This document shows, piece by piece, positions 3,110-18,269 of a stretch of 64,000 bases of DNA (positions are counted from its first letter, which is position 1; each line of letters opens with the position of its first letter). The stretch is from Synergistaceae bacterium (GTDB lineage: Bacteria > Synergistota > Synergistia > Synergistales > Aminobacteriaceae), in assembly GCA_017450125.1 (NCBI GenBank), contig JAFSWZ010000038.1, positions 1-64,000 on the forward strand, read 5' to 3'. Below the pieces are notes generated by a model that saw only the letters and a program-made list of their open reading frames with translations, was not told where the DNA came from and ran no database searches. A program made the translations under genes and the position numbers.

Positions 3110-4323
3110 ATGAGCAGAATTGCTATTGTCGGCGGCTGCGGGCATGTCGGTTTCCCGTTAGGGCTTGCGCTAGCCAGCGGTCTAAGTAATTCACACAAGG
3201 GGGGGGGGCAAACTACGTATCGCTGATCGACATCAACGCTGAAGTCATCAGCACCATCAACAGCGGCCGCGTACCCTTCCAAGAAGCCGGAGCAGAAAGC
3301 ATACTCCGCGAAGTCCTCGAGGCAAAGGCACTCCACGCCTCAGACGACATGAATCTTGTGCGTGATGCAGACGCAGTAATCTTCGTAACAGGCACTCCAG
3401 TCGACGAACACCTCAACCCAAGAATCCGCGACGTTCTCAGCGTCATAAAGCTCTATCTTCCGTACATGAATCCTGGACAGCTGATAATTCTCAGGAGCAC
3501 AATCTTTCCCGGAGTGTTCCGTGTTGTCGACAATATGCTGACTAAGTCGTTCGGCACTGCACCGAAGCTGGCGTTCTGCCCGGAGCGCATCGTTCAGGGC
3601 AAGGGTATCGAGGAGATCTTCACGCTCCCGCAGCTCGTCTCAGCGAACTCTCCTGAAGCCTTCCGCGAAGCATCAGAGCTCTTCTCGCACATAGCACCGA
3701 AGATTATTCCCCTCGAGCCCGAAGAAGCCGAGCTGGCCAAGCTCCTGACGAACTCGTGGCGTTACCTAGAGTTTGCCATAGCCAATCAGTTCTACATGAT
3801 GTGCGAGGAGAAGGGTTACAGCTTCTACAAGATTCTTGGTGCGCTGAGTGAGGATTACCCGAGAGCGAGGCATTTTGCGCGGGCTGGTTTCGCTGCCGGG
3901 CCGTGCCTGTTCAAGGACACGATGCAGCTGTCAGCCTTCTACAACAACAAGTTCTTTCTGGGTCAGGCAGGAATGCTCGTGAATGAGGGATTGCCTGATT
4001 TCGTGGTCAGCCAGCTCGAGAAGCGCATGGGAGGAAGCCTCAAGGACAAGAAGATAGCTATTCTGGGAATGGCCTTCAAGCCCAACAACGACGACACGCG
4101 CGAGAGCCTGTCGTTCAAGCTCAGGAAGAATCTCGAGTTCAGGATGGCGGAAGTCCTGATACATGACCCGTATCTAGACACAGCACCGCTCGGGGAAGTC
4201 CTTGCGCAGGCTGACGGAGTGATACTCGGCGTGCCTCATGACGAGTACTTGGGGCTGAAGATTGCTGTCCCGTTCGTGGACTGCTGGAACGTGTGGGCAA
4301 CGACATCCGGGAAGGAGGACTAA
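3110..4323 (+). CDS. Nucleotide-sugar 6-dehydrogenase (UDP-glucose/GDP-mannose dehydrogenase family), out of frame at a G10 tract
   Basis: Family members oxidise the C6 hydroxyl of an NDP-sugar to a uronic acid with two NAD+. Translation from ATG 3110, after the ribosome site GGAGGAG, gives a Rossmann start (IAIVGGCGHVGFP). It then enters a run of ten G (3199-3208) and stops at 3224-3226. The rest of the enzyme continues in the other frame to 4323: NAD-domain end, central helix, active-site AGPCLFKD (cysteine near 266 of the restored protein) and C-terminal domain with FKPNNDDTRES. With 8 or 11 G the frame would be open for about 404 residues. An internal ATG at 3349 would lack the NAD-binding motif. 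The best reading is a phase-variable gene in the OFF state; a plain frameshift mutation or a base-calling error is the alternative. It is first in the operon, so polarity on later genes is possible. Substrate unknown. Confidence 0.85.
3199..3208 (+). repeat. Homopolymer G10 tract (putative phase-variation switch, OFF)
   Basis: Ten consecutive G inside codons 30-33 of the nucleotide-sugar dehydrogenase. Ten or nine G lead to an early stop; eight or eleven restore the frame. Elsewhere in the window G or C runs reach only about six, apart from the second tract at 6580. Confidence 0.9.
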
Positions 4324-12391: not shown

Positions 12392-14113
12392 TTATCTCAC
12401 AAAAAGGGGCTGTTTTCCGCCCTTCGTTATGTCAACATACCCCAAGTCAGTTATCCTCAGCTCAGGAATCACGCTAAGGCACAAGAACGACAGCACCATG
12501 AACGGGTGAGGTATCCTCACACCGAGAGCCCCTGCGGCTGTCTCCATCTTCGTGAGCTCCGCGCAGACCTGCTCGGGTTCAAGGTAGCTCATCAGTCCTC
12601 CGATAGGCAGGGCAAAAGATGCCTTCACCTCCGCGCCTTCACTGACTACCAGGCCTCCGCCCATCTCTGCGAGAGCCTTCAACGCCGTGATTATGCTCTC
12701 GTCGTCCGCACCAGCCACAACGTAATTGTGTGCGTCATGCGCAACAGAGCTCCCCACAGCCCCGCGCATTATCCCGAGCCCCTTCACGAAGCCGACACCG
12801 AAGCGTCCCGTGTCCCTGTGGCGTTCGAGCACGACAATCTTCGCGATGTCGCGTTCAGTGTCAGGCACGGCAAAGCCGCCGCAGGTTTTAGGGGGCAGGG
12901 TTAAGGTGTTAGTTATGACTGTGCCTTCGGTTACGCCGATCACGTTCAGCATTCCGTCCTGCGCAGGAACGCGTATCTGTTCCGTTGTGGGGACGTTCTT
13001 CACCCTCACGCGCAAAACCGGCGCGGCGTGTTCTGCGTCGTTCGCCGTGAAGACATCATCATCACGCACAGCAAGCCGCCCGTCCTTCCAGACCTCGCGG
13101 ACAGTGAAATTCTCGTCCATCGTATCAGCATCGAGGAGGGCAAAGTCAGCCTTCATTCCCGGCGCGATGCCTCCTCTGTCGTGAAGCCTGAAGTACTCGG
13201 CAGGGCTCAGCGTTACCATCCTCAGGGCAACGAACGGGTCAAGCCCCTCGCTTATCATGATGCGCATCTTCTCGTCCATGTGCCCGCGCTCAAGAAGGTA
13301 GCGTGCGGTTATGTCGTCGCTCACAACCATACAGCGTGCGGCATTGAGGGGGTTCTCCTTGATGAGGGGCAGGAGAGTTTTCAGGTCGAGGAAGGAAGCT
13401 CCCTCGCGAATCATCAGCCACATTCCCCGCGAAAGTTTCTCCCTCGCTTCGTTGAGGTCAGTGCATTCGTGGTCGGAGTTCACGCCACTCGCAAGGTAGG
13501 CGTTGAGGGCTTTGCCGGACACTCCGGGCGCGTGGCCGGTTAATGGTACGTTGCCAGCCGCAAGAATTTTCCCCCATGCTTCCGGGTCTCCGGCGATAAC
13601 TGCGGGAAAGTTCATCATCTCGCCCAAGTGCTGGACTAATCCCCTGTCGAACATGGATTTCACCGCAACCATGTCGAGCTCCTCAAAGGGTGTCTCGAGC
13701 TCGCTCGCCGGTACGCATGACGGTGCTCCGTAGAAGATGTCGACCGGCAGTCCCTGCGATGCCCGGAACATGTACTCTAGCCCCTTAATGCCGAGAGCGT
13801 TGGAGATCTCATGAGGGTCAGCAAGAACTGTTCCCGTCCCGAAACGCGCGGCAGTAAGGGCAAAGTTCTGCGGGGTCATCATCGTGTCCTCAATGTGTAC
13901 GTGCCCGTCAATCATCGAGGGGATTAACACCCTTCCTCCTGCGTCAACATTCACGCGTCCGCTGTAGCCCGTTCCGATGCCCGCAATACGCCCGCCGTAA
14001 ACTGCCACGTCTGCCGGTTCGTAGCTCAGGCTGTAGACGTTAGCTATCCGTGCGTTGTGTATCACCAGCTCTGCGGGAATGTCTCCCCTCGCACATGCCG
14101 CCAGTCTGTTCAT
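12392..14113 (-). CDS. ade: Adenine deaminase
   Basis: Converts adenine to hypoxanthine and ammonia; an amidohydrolase with a dinuclear metal site. The 573-residue protein has the metal-binding DGHVHIEDTMM near residues 60-70, an HECTD-type segment, VVSDDIT and the extended C-terminal domain of bacterial Ade. Length is as expected. The ATG overlaps the gtrA stop (ATGA), which couples it to the upstream flagellin-gtrA pair. That pairing is odd and may reflect compaction rather than shared function. The downstream neighbour is the purine permease. Confidence 0.95.
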   Translation of the reverse strand: MNRLAACARGDIPAELVIHNARIANVYSLSYEPADVAVYGGRIAGIGTGYSGRVNVDAGGRVLIPSMIDGHVHIEDTMMTPQNFALTAARFGTGTVLADPHEISNALGIKGLEYMFRASQGLPVDIFYGAPSCVPASELETPFEELDMVAVKSMFDRGLVQHLGEMMNFPAVIAGDPEAWGKILAAGNVPLTGHAPGVSGKALNAYLASGVNSDHECTDLNEAREKLSRGMWLMIREGASFLDLKTLLPLIKENPLNAARCMVVSDDITARYLLERGHMDEKMRIMISEGLDPFVALRMVTLSPAEYFRLHDRGGIAPGMKADFALLDADTMDENFTVREVWKDGRLAVRDDDVFTANDAEHAAPVLRVRVKNVPTTEQIRVPAQDGMLNVIGVTEGTVITNTLTLPPKTCGGFAVPDTERDIAKIVVLERHRDTGRFGVGFVKGLGIMRGAVGSSVAHDAHNYVVAGADDESIITALKALAEMGGGLVVSEGAEVKASFALPIGGLMSYLEPEQVCAELTKMETAAGALGVRIPHPFMVLSFLCLSVIPELRITDLGYVDITKGGKQPLFVR

Positions 14114-14502
14114 GAATTGCTTTCCCCCTTGAAGATTATCAGCTTGCTGAACACGTAATTGAGGATCACCACCAGAACGTTCGAGGCAGTCTTTATGAAC
14201 ACGTCGTGGAAGCCCAGAACGTCAACGAACACGTACATGATGATAACGTCAATCACTCCCGTAGTTATCCTCGCACCGAAGAAGTATGCCGCCTCTCGGA
14301 GCATTCCCCTGAAAGAAGCCTCCGTGCTGCGGAAAACGTATTTGCGGTTGGTGTAGTACGCAAAGAAGACTGCGACTGTCCACGCAATCACCGTCGAAGG
14401 CACGACCGCCAGTCCCAGAACCCGAGTCAATGCCCAGTACGCAAAGATGTTGAGGACTGTTGTTAATACGCCAAAGATTCCATAGAGTATCAGCTGTTTC
14501 AT
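14110..14502 (-). CDS. GtrA family membrane protein
   Basis: A 130-residue protein with four predicted helices covering the whole length, typical of GtrA. Family members are thought to move or help present polyprenyl-phosphate-linked sugars across the inner membrane for O-antigen, teichoic acid or protein glycosylation. Its ATG overlaps the flagellin stop by four bases (ATGA), and its own stop overlaps the ade start in the same way. Coupling to flagellin suggests, but does not prove, a role in flagellin or surface glycosylation. A family 2 transferase partner is not adjacent; the nearest is at 5349. Confidence 0.88.
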   Translation of the reverse strand: MKQLILYGIFGVLTTVLNIFAYWALTRVLGLAVVPSTVIAWTVAVFFAYYTNRKYVFRSTEASFRGMLREAAYFFGARITTGVIDVIIMYVFVDVLGFHDVFIKTASNVLVVILNYVFSKLIIFKGESNS

Positions 14503-17123
14503 CTCATTAAGCTCAGTACCTGCTGGGGTGTCTGGTTAGCCTGCGTGAAAACGGAATTTGTCGCCTGAAGCCGTATGTTCAGCTTCGTGAACTTCATCAT
14601 CATTCGTGCCATGTCAGCATCACGTATGCGGCTCTCAGCTTCGTTCATGTTCCTGCTCTCGATGCGCAGCTTCTCCGTGATGTGCTCAAGAGTGTTCTGC
14701 GATGCTCCGAGTTTTGCGCGCTGAGAAGATACTTTGTCGATTGCGCCGTCAATCATCGTCAGCGAACGTACTGCCGCTTCCTGCGAGGAGACATTCACGC
14801 CGTCAAGGCCGAGTGCTGATGCGGTCATGTTTCCGATGCTGATGCTGAACCTGTCGCCCTCGTACGCGCCCGTCTGCAGCTTCACACTGTTGTCCTTCAG
14901 GTGCAGGTCGAAAGAGTATGTGCCCGCAGAGCCCAGAACGTACTTCTTATCCTTGTCGTCCCACTTGGCCGCAACCGGCTTCATCGCGTCGAACTCTACG
15001 TCAATGTGTGGGGCAATAATGCCGTGAAGTTTGCTGCCCGTCGTCTTCACGTCCTTAGCGACAATTTCGCCCGAATGTGCCTCGCGAATCGTCGTCTTGT
15101 ACGTCGCTTCCTTTGAGGACTGTACGGTGTTCAGCCCGAGAACGTTCAGCATTTCCTGGCTGCCCGAGAAGCTGAGCTCGCCCGCTTTTCCCGCAACTAC
15201 AGAGCGCACAAGCAGGGTGGATGACTCGGTTGCTCCGGTGTCTGCCGTTTCCACTACAGATTCTGACGTGCCGAAGCCTCCGCGCGCTATGTTGCAGAAG
15301 TTGTTGTTGTCTTCAGCTTTGGTGAGGTATTTGCTCTGGCCGAGCCCGACGCTTATTGCGTCATTGATCTTTGCGGCGACATCCCGCATCGTGTCAGAAG
15401 CGTAAAGCATAACGCTCGCGGTTTTGCCGTCGCCCTGAGTTATCGTGAGCTTCTGCGCATCATCAAGGAGAAAGCGTCCGTCGTCGGTGTAGAACTGCTC
15501 TATCTCGCTGAGCTCGTAATCCACCATTTCGAGCCCTGAGCTTATCTCGCGCTTGGGTTTCTCTGGGGTTTCCCTAGCGGCAGGACGCTTCATGTCCTTG
15601 TACGTAACATCTGCCGAGCTGGCTCTCTCTCCATGCCCGATAGGCTCTGTCTGCTCAGCGTCAGTGAAGCCGTCAACTGTGAGGTCAAGCCCGTTCTGTA
15701 TGGTGATAGTTCCGCCCTGAACACCACCGCCGCCTCCGATTGCCGCACCTTTGCCGGTGTATGCGTTTCCTTCGCCGCCCGTCGCAGTTACAGTTCCTCC
15801 GCGTATCTTTATCGTCCCTTCGTTGGGGTAATTGCTGCCCGCAGAAACTCCAGAACCTGAACCGATGCCCGCACCGCCTACGCCTCCTGTGGCAGTAACA
15901 ATTCCGCCGTTGATGGTGATGTTTCCGCTGTGCCCGGGCAGCGAGCCCCCGGCACTTCCTCCGCCGATGCCAGCTCCGTACTCGCCGCCTATCGCAGTAA
16001 TCGTTCCGCCGAAAATCGTGATGTCGCCAGCAGGTGAAGCTCCGCCTCCGACTGCGTAGCATGAGCCGCCGATCCCTGCTCCGTGCGTACTTCCTTCTGC
16101 GCGGAGTTTACCGGCTGTCTGGTAGTCGCCCTTCATGCTGCTTATCGTCAGGGTTGAGCCTTCGGAGGCCTGAATCGCCGAGCTGTGAGGGCCTCCCATG
16201 TTCGTGCGGAAAATGTTTTCGTTGTCGTGGTCGCCGGGGTCTATCCACAGGTCAACATCAGCACCGACCATGTCGAATGCGTACTTTGTCGCCTCAATGT
16301 GCACGTCGCGGATAATTATCGTTGCCTTGACACCGCCGTCTACCTTGATGTAGTGGCCGGTCGCTATTGTGCCGCCTGATGCGTCGAGAGTACCTATCAC
16401 GCTGTAAGTTCCGTCCCCCGTGATGTGCAGGAAGCCTCCGTCATCGAACGTCCAGCCCTTGCCTGAAGTTTCGCCGAGTGTGTCCGTACCTTCAACTATG
16501 TTGATCTCAAACTCTTCGTAGCGTAGATAGGACTCTGCGTGCTGTATGCTGAAGATGTTTGTCTTCTGGACCTGCCCCTGCCCCGCGTCGTCCACGCTCA
16601 CGTCGAACTGGTAGTTCCCCTCAAAGTCGCCTTCGGCGTTCCCGCCGTTCTCGCCGGTGATGTATGCCCTTACCCCGAGTTCACTCGCTGACCACTCGAG
16701 GCCGGTCTCGCCGTTGAGGAGCTTCTTCTTGTTGAACTGCGTTGTGTGCGCTGTGCGGTCAATCTCCTTCTTGAGCTGGTCTATCTCCTTCTGGATGTGC
16801 TCGCGATCCTGCTGGGTCAGTGTCCCCGTCGCCGCCTGAACTGAGAGTTCGCGCATACGGTGAAGCATTCCTGTCGTGTCCTGCAGTGCTCCTTCTGCGG
16901 TCTGAAGAAGGCTTATTCCGTCCTGAGCATTCTCAAGAGCAGTGTCGAGGCCGCTTATCTGTGCCCTCATGCTCTCGCTTATCTCCATTCCGGCTTCATC
17001 GTCGGCGGCACTGTTTATCTGGAAACCCGTAGACAGTGCCTGAATTGTCCCGTCGAGTTTCTTGCCCGTGTCCTTCATCACGTTGAAGGCACTTAACGCT
17101 GATATGTTGTGATTGATCCTCAT
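14499..17123 (-). CDS. fliC: Flagellin with a large glycine-rich beta-helix-like insert
   Basis: Filament subunit, 874 residues, about twice a typical flagellin. Residues 1-165 are the classic D0/D1 N-terminus (MRINHNISAL, heptad-rich helices, QRE-type turn) and about 780-874 are the C-terminal D1/D0 ending in a helix-SLMR tail, so filament assembly looks intact. Between them, about 186-510 holds a non-flagellin block. Its core (345-475) repeats a roughly 35-residue unit: GAGIGGG-like at 348, 383, 417 and 459, each followed by an ITI.GGT.TATGG strand. Residues 540-770 resemble the ordinary outer D2/D3 region. AAGGAGATC precedes the ATG. It follows dprA by 72 bases and is coupled to gtrA. The insert would project from the filament and could bind a ligand. 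Confidence 0.93.
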   Translation of the reverse strand: MRINHNISALSAFNVMKDTGKKLDGTIQALSTGFQINSAADDEAGMEISESMRAQISGLDTALENAQDGISLLQTAEGALQDTTGMLHRMRELSVQAATGTLTQQDREHIQKEIDQLKKEIDRTAHTTQFNKKKLLNGETGLEWSASELGVRAYITGENGGNAEGDFEGNYQFDVSVDDAGQGQVQKTNIFSIQHAESYLRYEEFEINIVEGTDTLGETSGKGWTFDDGGFLHITGDGTYSVIGTLDASGGTIATGHYIKVDGGVKATIIIRDVHIEATKYAFDMVGADVDLWIDPGDHDNENIFRTNMGGPHSSAIQASEGSTLTISSMKGDYQTAGKLRAEGSTHGAGIGGSCYAVGGGASPAGDITIFGGTITAIGGEYGAGIGGGSAGGSLPGHSGNITINGGIVTATGGVGGAGIGSGSGVSAGSNYPNEGTIKIRGGTVTATGGEGNAYTGKGAAIGGGGGVQGGTITIQNGLDLTVDGFTDAEQTEPIGHGERASSADVTYKDMKRPAARETPEKPKREISSGLEMVDYELSEIEQFYTDDGRFLLDDAQKLTITQGDGKTASVMLYASDTMRDVAAKINDAISVGLGQSKYLTKAEDNNNFCNIARGGFGTSESVVETADTGATESSTLLVRSVVAGKAGELSFSGSQEMLNVLGLNTVQSSKEATYKTTIREAHSGEIVAKDVKTTGSKLHGIIAPHIDVEFDAMKPVAAKWDDKDKKYVLGSAGTYSFDLHLKDNSVKLQTGAYEGDRFSISIGNMTASALGLDGVNVSSQEAAVRSLTMIDGAIDKVSSQRAKLGASQNTLEHITEKLRIESRNMNEAESRIRDADMARMMMKFTKLNIRLQATNSVFTQANQTPQQVLSLMR
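15714..16091 (-). repeat. Glycine-rich tandem repeats inside the flagellin gene
   Basis: Four degenerate copies of about 35 codons (residues 345-470). Each has a GAGIG motif followed by an I-T-I, GG, T-V-T-A-T-G-G strand signature like those in right-handed beta-helix surface proteins. Spacings between GAGIG motifs are 35, 34 and 42 residues. Confidence 0.8.
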
Positions 17124-17195: not shown

Positions 17196-18269
17196 TCATG
17201 CTAAAGCTGAGTACCTGCCCCCTGCGTTCGTGATGAGAGCCTCCGCCTCGAGCTCCATCAGCGCGGAGTTCACGCTCACGAAGTCCTGCCCGGTCTCCCT
17301 GACGATTTCGTCTGCAGTACGCCCGCCCTGCCTCTGAAGCAATGAGTACACCGCCTGAGCATCTTCCGAGAGTTCAGGAGGTTCACCGAGCCCTAGCGAC
17401 AACTGCTCACGATGACCGGCAACTGACGCAACGAACTCCTCAACGCTCACGAGAATTTTCGCCCCCTCAGCAATGAGCCTGTTAGTTCCGCCGCAAGTCT
17501 CCTCGCTGATTCGTCCCGGAACTGCCCAGAGTTCGCGGCCAAGACGTACGCACATTCTCGCTGTGTGCATCGCCCCGCCGGTCTCCGAACTCTCCACAAC
17601 AACCGTCCTCCCTGAGAGTGCGGCAATGATTCTGTTGCGCTCTACGAACCTCCAGCCCTCGCCGGTTGTCCCGAAGGGGTATTCAGACACGATTGCTCCT
17701 CTCTCTGCGATGCGGCTGAACAAGTCTCTGTTCGACGAAGGATATATCACGTCGATTCCTGTCCCGAACACCGCAACAGTGAACCCATCCTCCGCGAGAG
17801 CTCCCCTGTGCCCTGCGCTGTCGACACCTGACGCACCTCCGCTGGTTACGGTTATTCCTGCGCGCGCTAAAGCCCTCCCGAGCTGCGTTGCTGTGTTCTG
17901 CCCGTATGAACTTGGCCGACGCGTCCCGACAACTGAGACCGACGGAAGCGAGATGTTCACCGTGCCTTTGACGTACAGCCCGACGGGGGGCTTGTCGAGA
18001 TCAAGGAGAAGTGCCGGGTAGGTGATGTCCTTGATGGTGATGAATGATGCGCCGAAGGACTCCGTACGTTCGAGCTCCTGTTCTGCCCAGCTGTCTTTGG
18101 CGAGAAGGGAGGTGAGACGCTGCTTCTGTGAGCTCGTCATGCCCAGTTCCTCCCACAAGGAATGAGAGCCCGCGTCTTCCGGCGAGAACTCCGAGCAGAG
18201 CCGCCTGAACATCGAGCAGGGTACACCGGCGGCATTGAAGAGTAGGCCTGCTGTTGTTATGTCATACAT
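17196..18269 (-). CDS. dprA: DNA processing protein A (DprA/Smf)
   Basis: Loads RecA onto incoming single-stranded DNA during natural transformation. The 357-residue protein has an N-terminal SAM-like region, the Rossmann DprA core (SVVGTRRPSSYG near residue 110, GGASGVDSAGH near 163, GTGIDVIYPS) and a C-terminal winged-helix-like domain (QGGRTADEIV). All parts expected of full-length DprA are present. It is divergent from metG with only 44 bases between starts. It runs toward the flagellin gene and may be cotranscribed with it. A competence role fits comEA, comEC and comF elsewhere in the window. Confidence 0.93.
   Translation of the reverse strand: MYDITTAGLLFNAAGVPCSMFRRLCSEFSPEDAGSHSLWEELGMTSSQKQRLTSLLAKDSWAEQELERTESFGASFITIKDITYPALLLDLDKPPVGLYVKGTVNISLPSVSVVGTRRPSSYGQNTATQLGRALARAGITVTSGGASGVDSAGHRGALAEDGFTVAVFGTGIDVIYPSSNRDLFSRIAERGAIVSEYPFGTTGEGWRFVERNRIIAALSGRTVVVESSETGGAMHTARMCVRLGRELWAVPGRISEETCGGTNRLIAEGAKILVSVEEFVASVAGHREQLSLGLGEPPELSEDAQAVYSLLQRQGGRTADEIVRETGQDFVSVNSALMELEAEALITNAGGRYSALA

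Follow-up and report, generated by a model that had tools for sequence, protein, structure and literature searches.

A gene of the window, the 64,000-nucleotide stretch of DNA analysed here, encodes a protein of 874 amino acids which by its PF00669 and PF00700 domains is a bacterial flagellin, and whose outer region holds an additional domain predicted to fold as a beta-solenoid. The initial annotation had described a chimeric flagellin with a beta-helix-like insert. The insert of foreign fold stood up to the analysis, but the protein is not a singular case: three paralogues of the genome carry the helix domain, and so do flagellins in six or more Synergistota genera, that of the window included; on the sequences compared it is a recurrent outer-domain module rather than a unique chimera. 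As for its role, we put slightly above even, at roughly 0.5, the probability that the protein is an accessory flagellin with a solenoid of the Cthe_2159 kind that binds glycans and is adhesive.

Table 1 Features of the flagellin gene and its neighbours (positions in the window)
Feature	Position	Strand	Basis
Flagellin gene with beta-helix outer domain, 874 aa	14499..17123	-	
Flagellin_N, N-terminal D0/D1 part, aa 1-139	16707..17123	-	PF00669, aa 3-139, 130.8 bits
Inserted outer domain, aa 198-534	15522..16532	-	Alignment of the genome's seven flagellins
Predicted beta-solenoid proper, aa ~205-510	15594..16511	-	AlphaFold2
Glycine-rich coils GAGIG / ITIxGG / TATGG, aa 348-464	15732..16082	-	
D2-like flagellin part, weak Flagellin_IN motif, aa ~535-785	14769..15521	-	Common to the other complete paralogues
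Flagellin_C, C-terminal D1/D0 helical part, aa 788-873	14505..14762	-	PF00700, 79.5 bits
GtrA-family membrane protein	14110..14502	-	PF04138, 76.9 bits
Adenine deaminase, overlaps gtrA by 4 bases	12392..14113	-	PF13382, PF01979
dprA, directly upstream of the flagellin gene	17196..18269	-	PF02481

Both assembly ends of the protein are canonical, as initially annotated, and their scores (Table 1) far exceed the Pfam cut-offs of 26.6 bits for PF00669 and 23 bits for PF00700. The boundaries of the insert were set at residues ~198-534 by alignment with the 549-residue paralogue C27, which lacks it; relative to C27 the insert comprises ~337 residues, close to the ~325 first estimated. Residues 537-873 match the flagellin of Geovibrio thiophilus (9au6), which among solved structures is closest to the flagellin parts and gave no significant match to the solenoid. 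Since residues ~535-785 constitute an ordinary D2-like part, the outer domain was added and the middle of the protein was not wholly replaced. The repeats named in the initial annotation are present within the insert as four copies of G-A-G/A-I-G (residues 348, 383, 417 and 459), three of [IV]xIxGG (368, 402 and 438) and three of [IV]TA[TI]GG (375, 409 and 445), counts equalled by none of 10,000 shuffles of the insert. The Beta_helix_3 model (PF18889) matched three stretches of the protein with 30.7 bits against a cut-off of 27, and it matched all 20 of the 20 flagellin inserts aligned. An identity as flagellinolysin (NF033876) was rejected at 72.9 bits against a cut-off of 205, the best stretch being residues 678-805 in the C-terminal part; the HExxH motif occurs nowhere in the translated flagellin.

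The insert region (residues 186-545), modelled with AlphaFold2 from 45 sequences, came out as an all-strand beta-solenoid with a mean pLDDT of 86 and a pTM of 0.85. In the full-length model the D0/D1 helices, the solenoid and the D2-like part follow one another, and its best structural match was the Geovibrio thiophilus flagellin; this model was weak outside the solenoid (pLDDT 71 overall, pTM 0.44), the solenoid itself being mostly at pLDDT 80-96. The predicted fold is hence a beta-solenoid and not D2/D3, in agreement with the beta-helix-like domain first proposed. Foldseek placed Cthe_2159 of Clostridium thermocellum (4peu) first with a probability of 1.00 and an E-value of 3.2e-3, although the similarity is distant (TM 0.42/0.58, the latter by target length; rmsd 6.0; 13% identity), and no later match was significant (E of 0.15 at best). 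A profile built from 20 inserts likewise ranked Cthe_2159 (4peu/4phb) first among solved structures (E 2e-4). Because glycine-rich repeats may mislead such a search, it was redone without the glycine-rich half, and the non-repetitive first part again returned 4peu first (E 1.8e-3, bias 0.4 bits). Cthe_2159 is a beta-helix protein but not a flagellin, and the extra GAGIG/TATGG coils belong to the domain of the window. The insert of the window did not match the Pfam family of Cthe_2159 (PF14262) and is therefore likened to Cthe_2159 in function, not placed in its family; ten of the 20 flagellin inserts match PF14262 weakly, at E-values up to 1 and at best 7e-6. With the handedness taken from the Cthe_2159 match, the insert would be a right-handed parallel beta-helix. 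An origin from phage tail fibres was also considered and found no support, as the fold search against viral proteins gave no significant match.

The 2.16-Mb genome contains eight Flagellin_N matches, namely seven flagellins and FlgL. The check for further flagellin genes called for at the outset thus revealed a whole set of paralogues, and three of the seven flagellins (that of the window, C24 and C25) bear the helix domain at the same site. The domains of C24 (959 aa) and C25 (917 aa) are 47% and 49% identical to the insert of the window. C7, C10 and C17 have a different outer domain at this position and C27 has no insert. The flagellar export genes include one FlhA (885 bits), FlgL and, as judged by eye, a FlgK-like ORF. 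A simple scan found no perfect sigma-28-type promoter for the window flagellin; paralogue C7 has one. Being one of seven flagellins, and lacking a perfect promoter of this type, the protein may be a minor subunit and need not be present in the thousands of copies per filament first pictured; it is probably accessory rather than the main flagellin.

The start codon of gtrA overlaps the stop codon of the flagellin gene, and the two genes are therefore probably co-transcribed. The GtrA-family gene is possibly linked to glycan handling, or it is a passenger. The adenine deaminase gene, beyond which lies a purine-type permease gene, is a neighbour only and stands outside the mechanism proposed below. 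The gene order metG-dprA-flagellin-gtrA-ade recurs in one relative of a different species (L052), whose flagellin at the syntenic locus has kept the helix domain; its core is 64% and its insert ~51% identical to those of the window flagellin.

The genus falls among the Synergistales / uncultured Fretibacterium, with samples that include the rumen of red deer and goat. Flagellins were found in all 43 of the 43 genus genomes searched, with two to fourteen Flagellin_N matches each, and those examined were very large except for a small class. The helix domain occurs in 27 of the 65 complete genus flagellins examined rather than in every flagellin of the clade, and it is beta-helix-like; nearly all full-length insert matches within the genus are flagellins that carry it in one and the same position. 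A search of relatives with the single protein had made the insert look specific to the genus. This was overturned by a profile search of 188 genomes of the phylum, which detected the domain in 54 genomes and 12 of 63 genera, not always in flagellins. Based on twenty examined matches outside the genus, helix flagellins occur in g18, g25, g31 and g33 of the same family and in g49 of another family, and the domain resides in non-flagellin ORFs in g29, g30 and g45. In one genome of a sister genus (G088, L251-L280) there are about 19 genes for flagellins, the longest open frame reaching 2073 aa.

Beyond the Synergistota, a contig scan with a seven-row insert alignment detected the same repeats in large proteins other than flagellins from rumen Bacteroidales, Prevotella, Ruminococcus, Lachnospiraceae, Lentisphaerae and Treponema, which agrees with the initial remark that such repeats are typical of large adhesin-like proteins, here of rumen and gut bacteria. 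The only exception among the matches found was a flagellin with helix repeats from a Bacillota member, Ruminiclostridium sp. from the colon of a water deer (L138, 2625-6233, plus strand, 1202 aa). It combines GAGIG repeats with an HExxH peptidase region of the flagellinolysin type, which at 172 bits stays under the cut-off of 205.

Foreign domains in the middle of flagellins are known, with 61 domain types and proteolytic flagellins described (PMC5595980). The flagellinolysin FliA(H) of Clostridium haemolyticum likewise has a foreign domain in the hypervariable, surface-exposed middle with the ends intact, and flagellinolysins are likewise patchy across taxa (PMC5595980); their domain is a zinc metallopeptidase, in contrast to the glycine-rich beta-solenoid reported here, and the flagellin from Ruminiclostridium sp. 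has regions of both types. No description of a beta-helix flagellin was found in the literature compared, the supplementary list of 61 domains of PMC5595980 standing outside that comparison.

The adhesive, glycan-binding flagellin that we favour would be exported and would assemble through its ordinary D0/D1 helices, with the solenoid positioned on the outside of the filament in a socket between D1 and the D2-like part. Sister flagellins have another outer domain, or nothing, at this site. The solenoid would bind a polysaccharide, either of the plant cell wall or another glycan of gut or rumen, and a filament, or a segment of helix flagellin within it, would attach the cell to fibre particles, to mucus or to cells nearby. 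Cellulose and polygalacturonic acid are reported ligands of Cthe_2159 (PMC6712302); as the nearest solved relative of the insert binds plant polysaccharide, the filament may double as a sticky, particle-grabbing fibre. Solenoids related to Cthe_2159 form a class among adhesive domains (PMC9210967). One of them, the binding region of the Lactobacillus reuteri SRRP, serves as an adhesive head and reportedly binds epithelial cells and pectic acid (PMC9210967), although these fibrillar adhesins, likened to the present protein by description, are stalk-type surface proteins and not flagellins. Again by description, EtpA of enterotoxigenic E. coli is comparable as a beta-helix adhesin presented via the flagellum and bridging to intestinal glycans (PMC10284417); it is a separate, two-partner-secreted protein at the flagellar tip, whereas here the helix lies within the flagellin chain. 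Of 37 genus genomes, 36 furthermore encode proteins that match the Cthe_2159 family; a search of 24 genomes belonging to the order's other families gave a single weak match below the cut-off and none above it. The family member of the genome itself has 732 aa and a lipoprotein-like N-terminus (L218, 3241-5436, minus strand; G000:C13); its gene adjoins a metal-ATPase-like gene. Taken together, the binding data of Cthe_2159, the adhesive solenoid class, EtpA and the Cthe_2159 proteins of the genus lead us to favour a carbohydrate-binding, adhesive flagellin. The repeats shared with non-flagellin proteins, the domain retained at the L052 locus and the Bacillota flagellin also speak for it; the missing PF14262 match of the insert, the distant superposition on 4peu and the weakness of the full-length model outside the solenoid count against it. 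Synergistota are mostly amino-acid fermenters, and a plant polysaccharide would thus be an anchor for the cell and not its food. Of the adhesin or receptor decoy originally suggested, adhesion through carbohydrate binding of the Cthe_2159 type became the most specific lead, and nothing but its surface exposure speaks for the decoy.

When the cores of 65 genus flagellins were placed in a tree, the 27 helix-bearing rows required at least seven label changes, forced by well-supported branches, a count to be read with care for L086, which has weak helix matches, a long branch and low identity. The three helix paralogues of the genome fall into three different core clades. The insert tree mostly tracks the core clades; L065, with starred support in both trees, joins a clade-C core to a clade-B insert, which indicates a module swap. 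Evolution is much faster in the inserts than in the core, with median end branches of 0.67 and 0.12 changes per column in trees built from different sets of rows.

Homopolymeric tracts may be a further source of variation. Seven flagellins of the sister genus g18 contain a poly-G tract of 11-19 G, as read from the assemblies, which separates D1 from the outer domain at codon ~155, and five of the seven carry the helix. The frame is open through the tract into the helix in L232 (G13, ~3247), and the helix is out of frame in L233 (G18, 3061), L234 (G13, 1854), L237 (G12, 1167) and L238 (G11, 2961). The frame of G089:C130 (L264, G13) is open beyond the tract, but the part of it that was read showed no helix; that of G088:C29 (L254, G19) meets a stop soon after the tract. 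From this pattern we infer slipped-strand phase variation in g18. Tracts also precede helix flagellins: paralogue C24 (G000:C24; L012, 6549) has G12 located 69 bases before its ATG, and L055 (G10), L079 (G9) and L059 (A12) have tracts at -68 to -96; the other flagellins of that set have no such tract upstream. Phase variation of the window flagellin itself was rejected, as no G/C tract of at least 8 occurs in or near the gene. Combining paralogue sockets that accept the helix with poly-G tracts acting as on/off switches, one may tentatively picture switchable adhesive flagella, with cells varying in the glycans they hold. Among the relatives, several helix flagellins are interrupted as assembled; no homopolymers were found where L050 and L073 are broken, and mutations or assembly errors are possible. 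In a sister-genus flagellin (L231, 2210-2214) an in-frame stop codon, TGA, separates D1 from the helix domain in an otherwise open frame. Stretches of 55 and 27 consecutive C close to the end of a contig (L235, 3970-4052) are probably an assembly artefact.

Fast insert evolution, the swap of outer domains between paralogues in L065 and the phase-variation-like tracts in or before helix flagellins could also mark an antigenic or phage-escape coat, a variable shield whose exact shape is irrelevant and which evades flagellum-binding phages and host antibodies. We regard this explanation as rather doubtful. Phase variation is just as typical of adhesins, and the fold has been kept across genera, in two families and at the L052 locus. 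A free-for-all would also leave unexplained why one carbohydrate-binding-like fold recurs, even in the Bacillota.

A mechanical function appears unlikely. Bulky outer domains would then contact each other along the filament and make it stiffer or wider, as an aid to swimming through viscous rumen content or mucus, with no ligand involved. Such roles have been reported for outer domains of other flagellins (PMC8931119; PMC10256154), in the former paper that they can serve motility in viscous media, and the large size of the genus flagellins outside the small class suggests that size may matter whatever the domain. However, the fold is of an adhesin/CBM type found elsewhere mainly in non-flagellar proteins, and unrelated outer domains coexist on paralogues in the same cell. 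It is very unlikely that the filament is enzymatic, with a polysaccharide lyase-like or otherwise hydrolytic solenoid. Cthe_2159 was indeed described as polysaccharide lyase-like and related to the PL9 fold (PMC6712302), pectate lyases share the fold and appeared low in the fold-search ranking, and flagellins with peptidase domains exist (PMC5595980), but the fold matches beyond Cthe_2159 lack significance, no catalytic signature was identified in the insert, and its conserved columns are dominated by the glycine-rich coils. Least probable of all is a decaying or silent paralogue, unexpressed and with a domain content not under selection: the long core branch of the window flagellin (0.49), the promoter scan and the broken helix flagellins of relatives would fit, but the frame of 874 codons is intact, the assembly ends are conserved and the locus is retained in L052.

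To our knowledge, the outer domains of flagellins vary enormously, and for most of them no function is known. A recurrent helix module with a carbohydrate-binding relative, exchange between paralogues and, in a sister genus, apparent poly-G switches makes the purpose of an outer domain testable in a gut setting. If the favoured adhesive role holds true, an amino-acid-fermenting gut bacterium would gain a means of staying on fibre or mucus, and the protein would offer a natural template for the display of binding domains on filaments.

Poly-G tracts are also frequent elsewhere in the genome, where 125 overlapping G9 matches correspond to roughly 35 separate tracts, each of 10-14 G. They are often similarly flanked, by TTAC..A before and CA after the tract, with examples in the window at 3199 and 6580, and are probable contingency loci. 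Four tracts on G000:C23 (L208; 62058, 63047, 64033 and 65046) lie about 1 kb apart, and two of them are situated just before glycosyltransferase-like ORFs.
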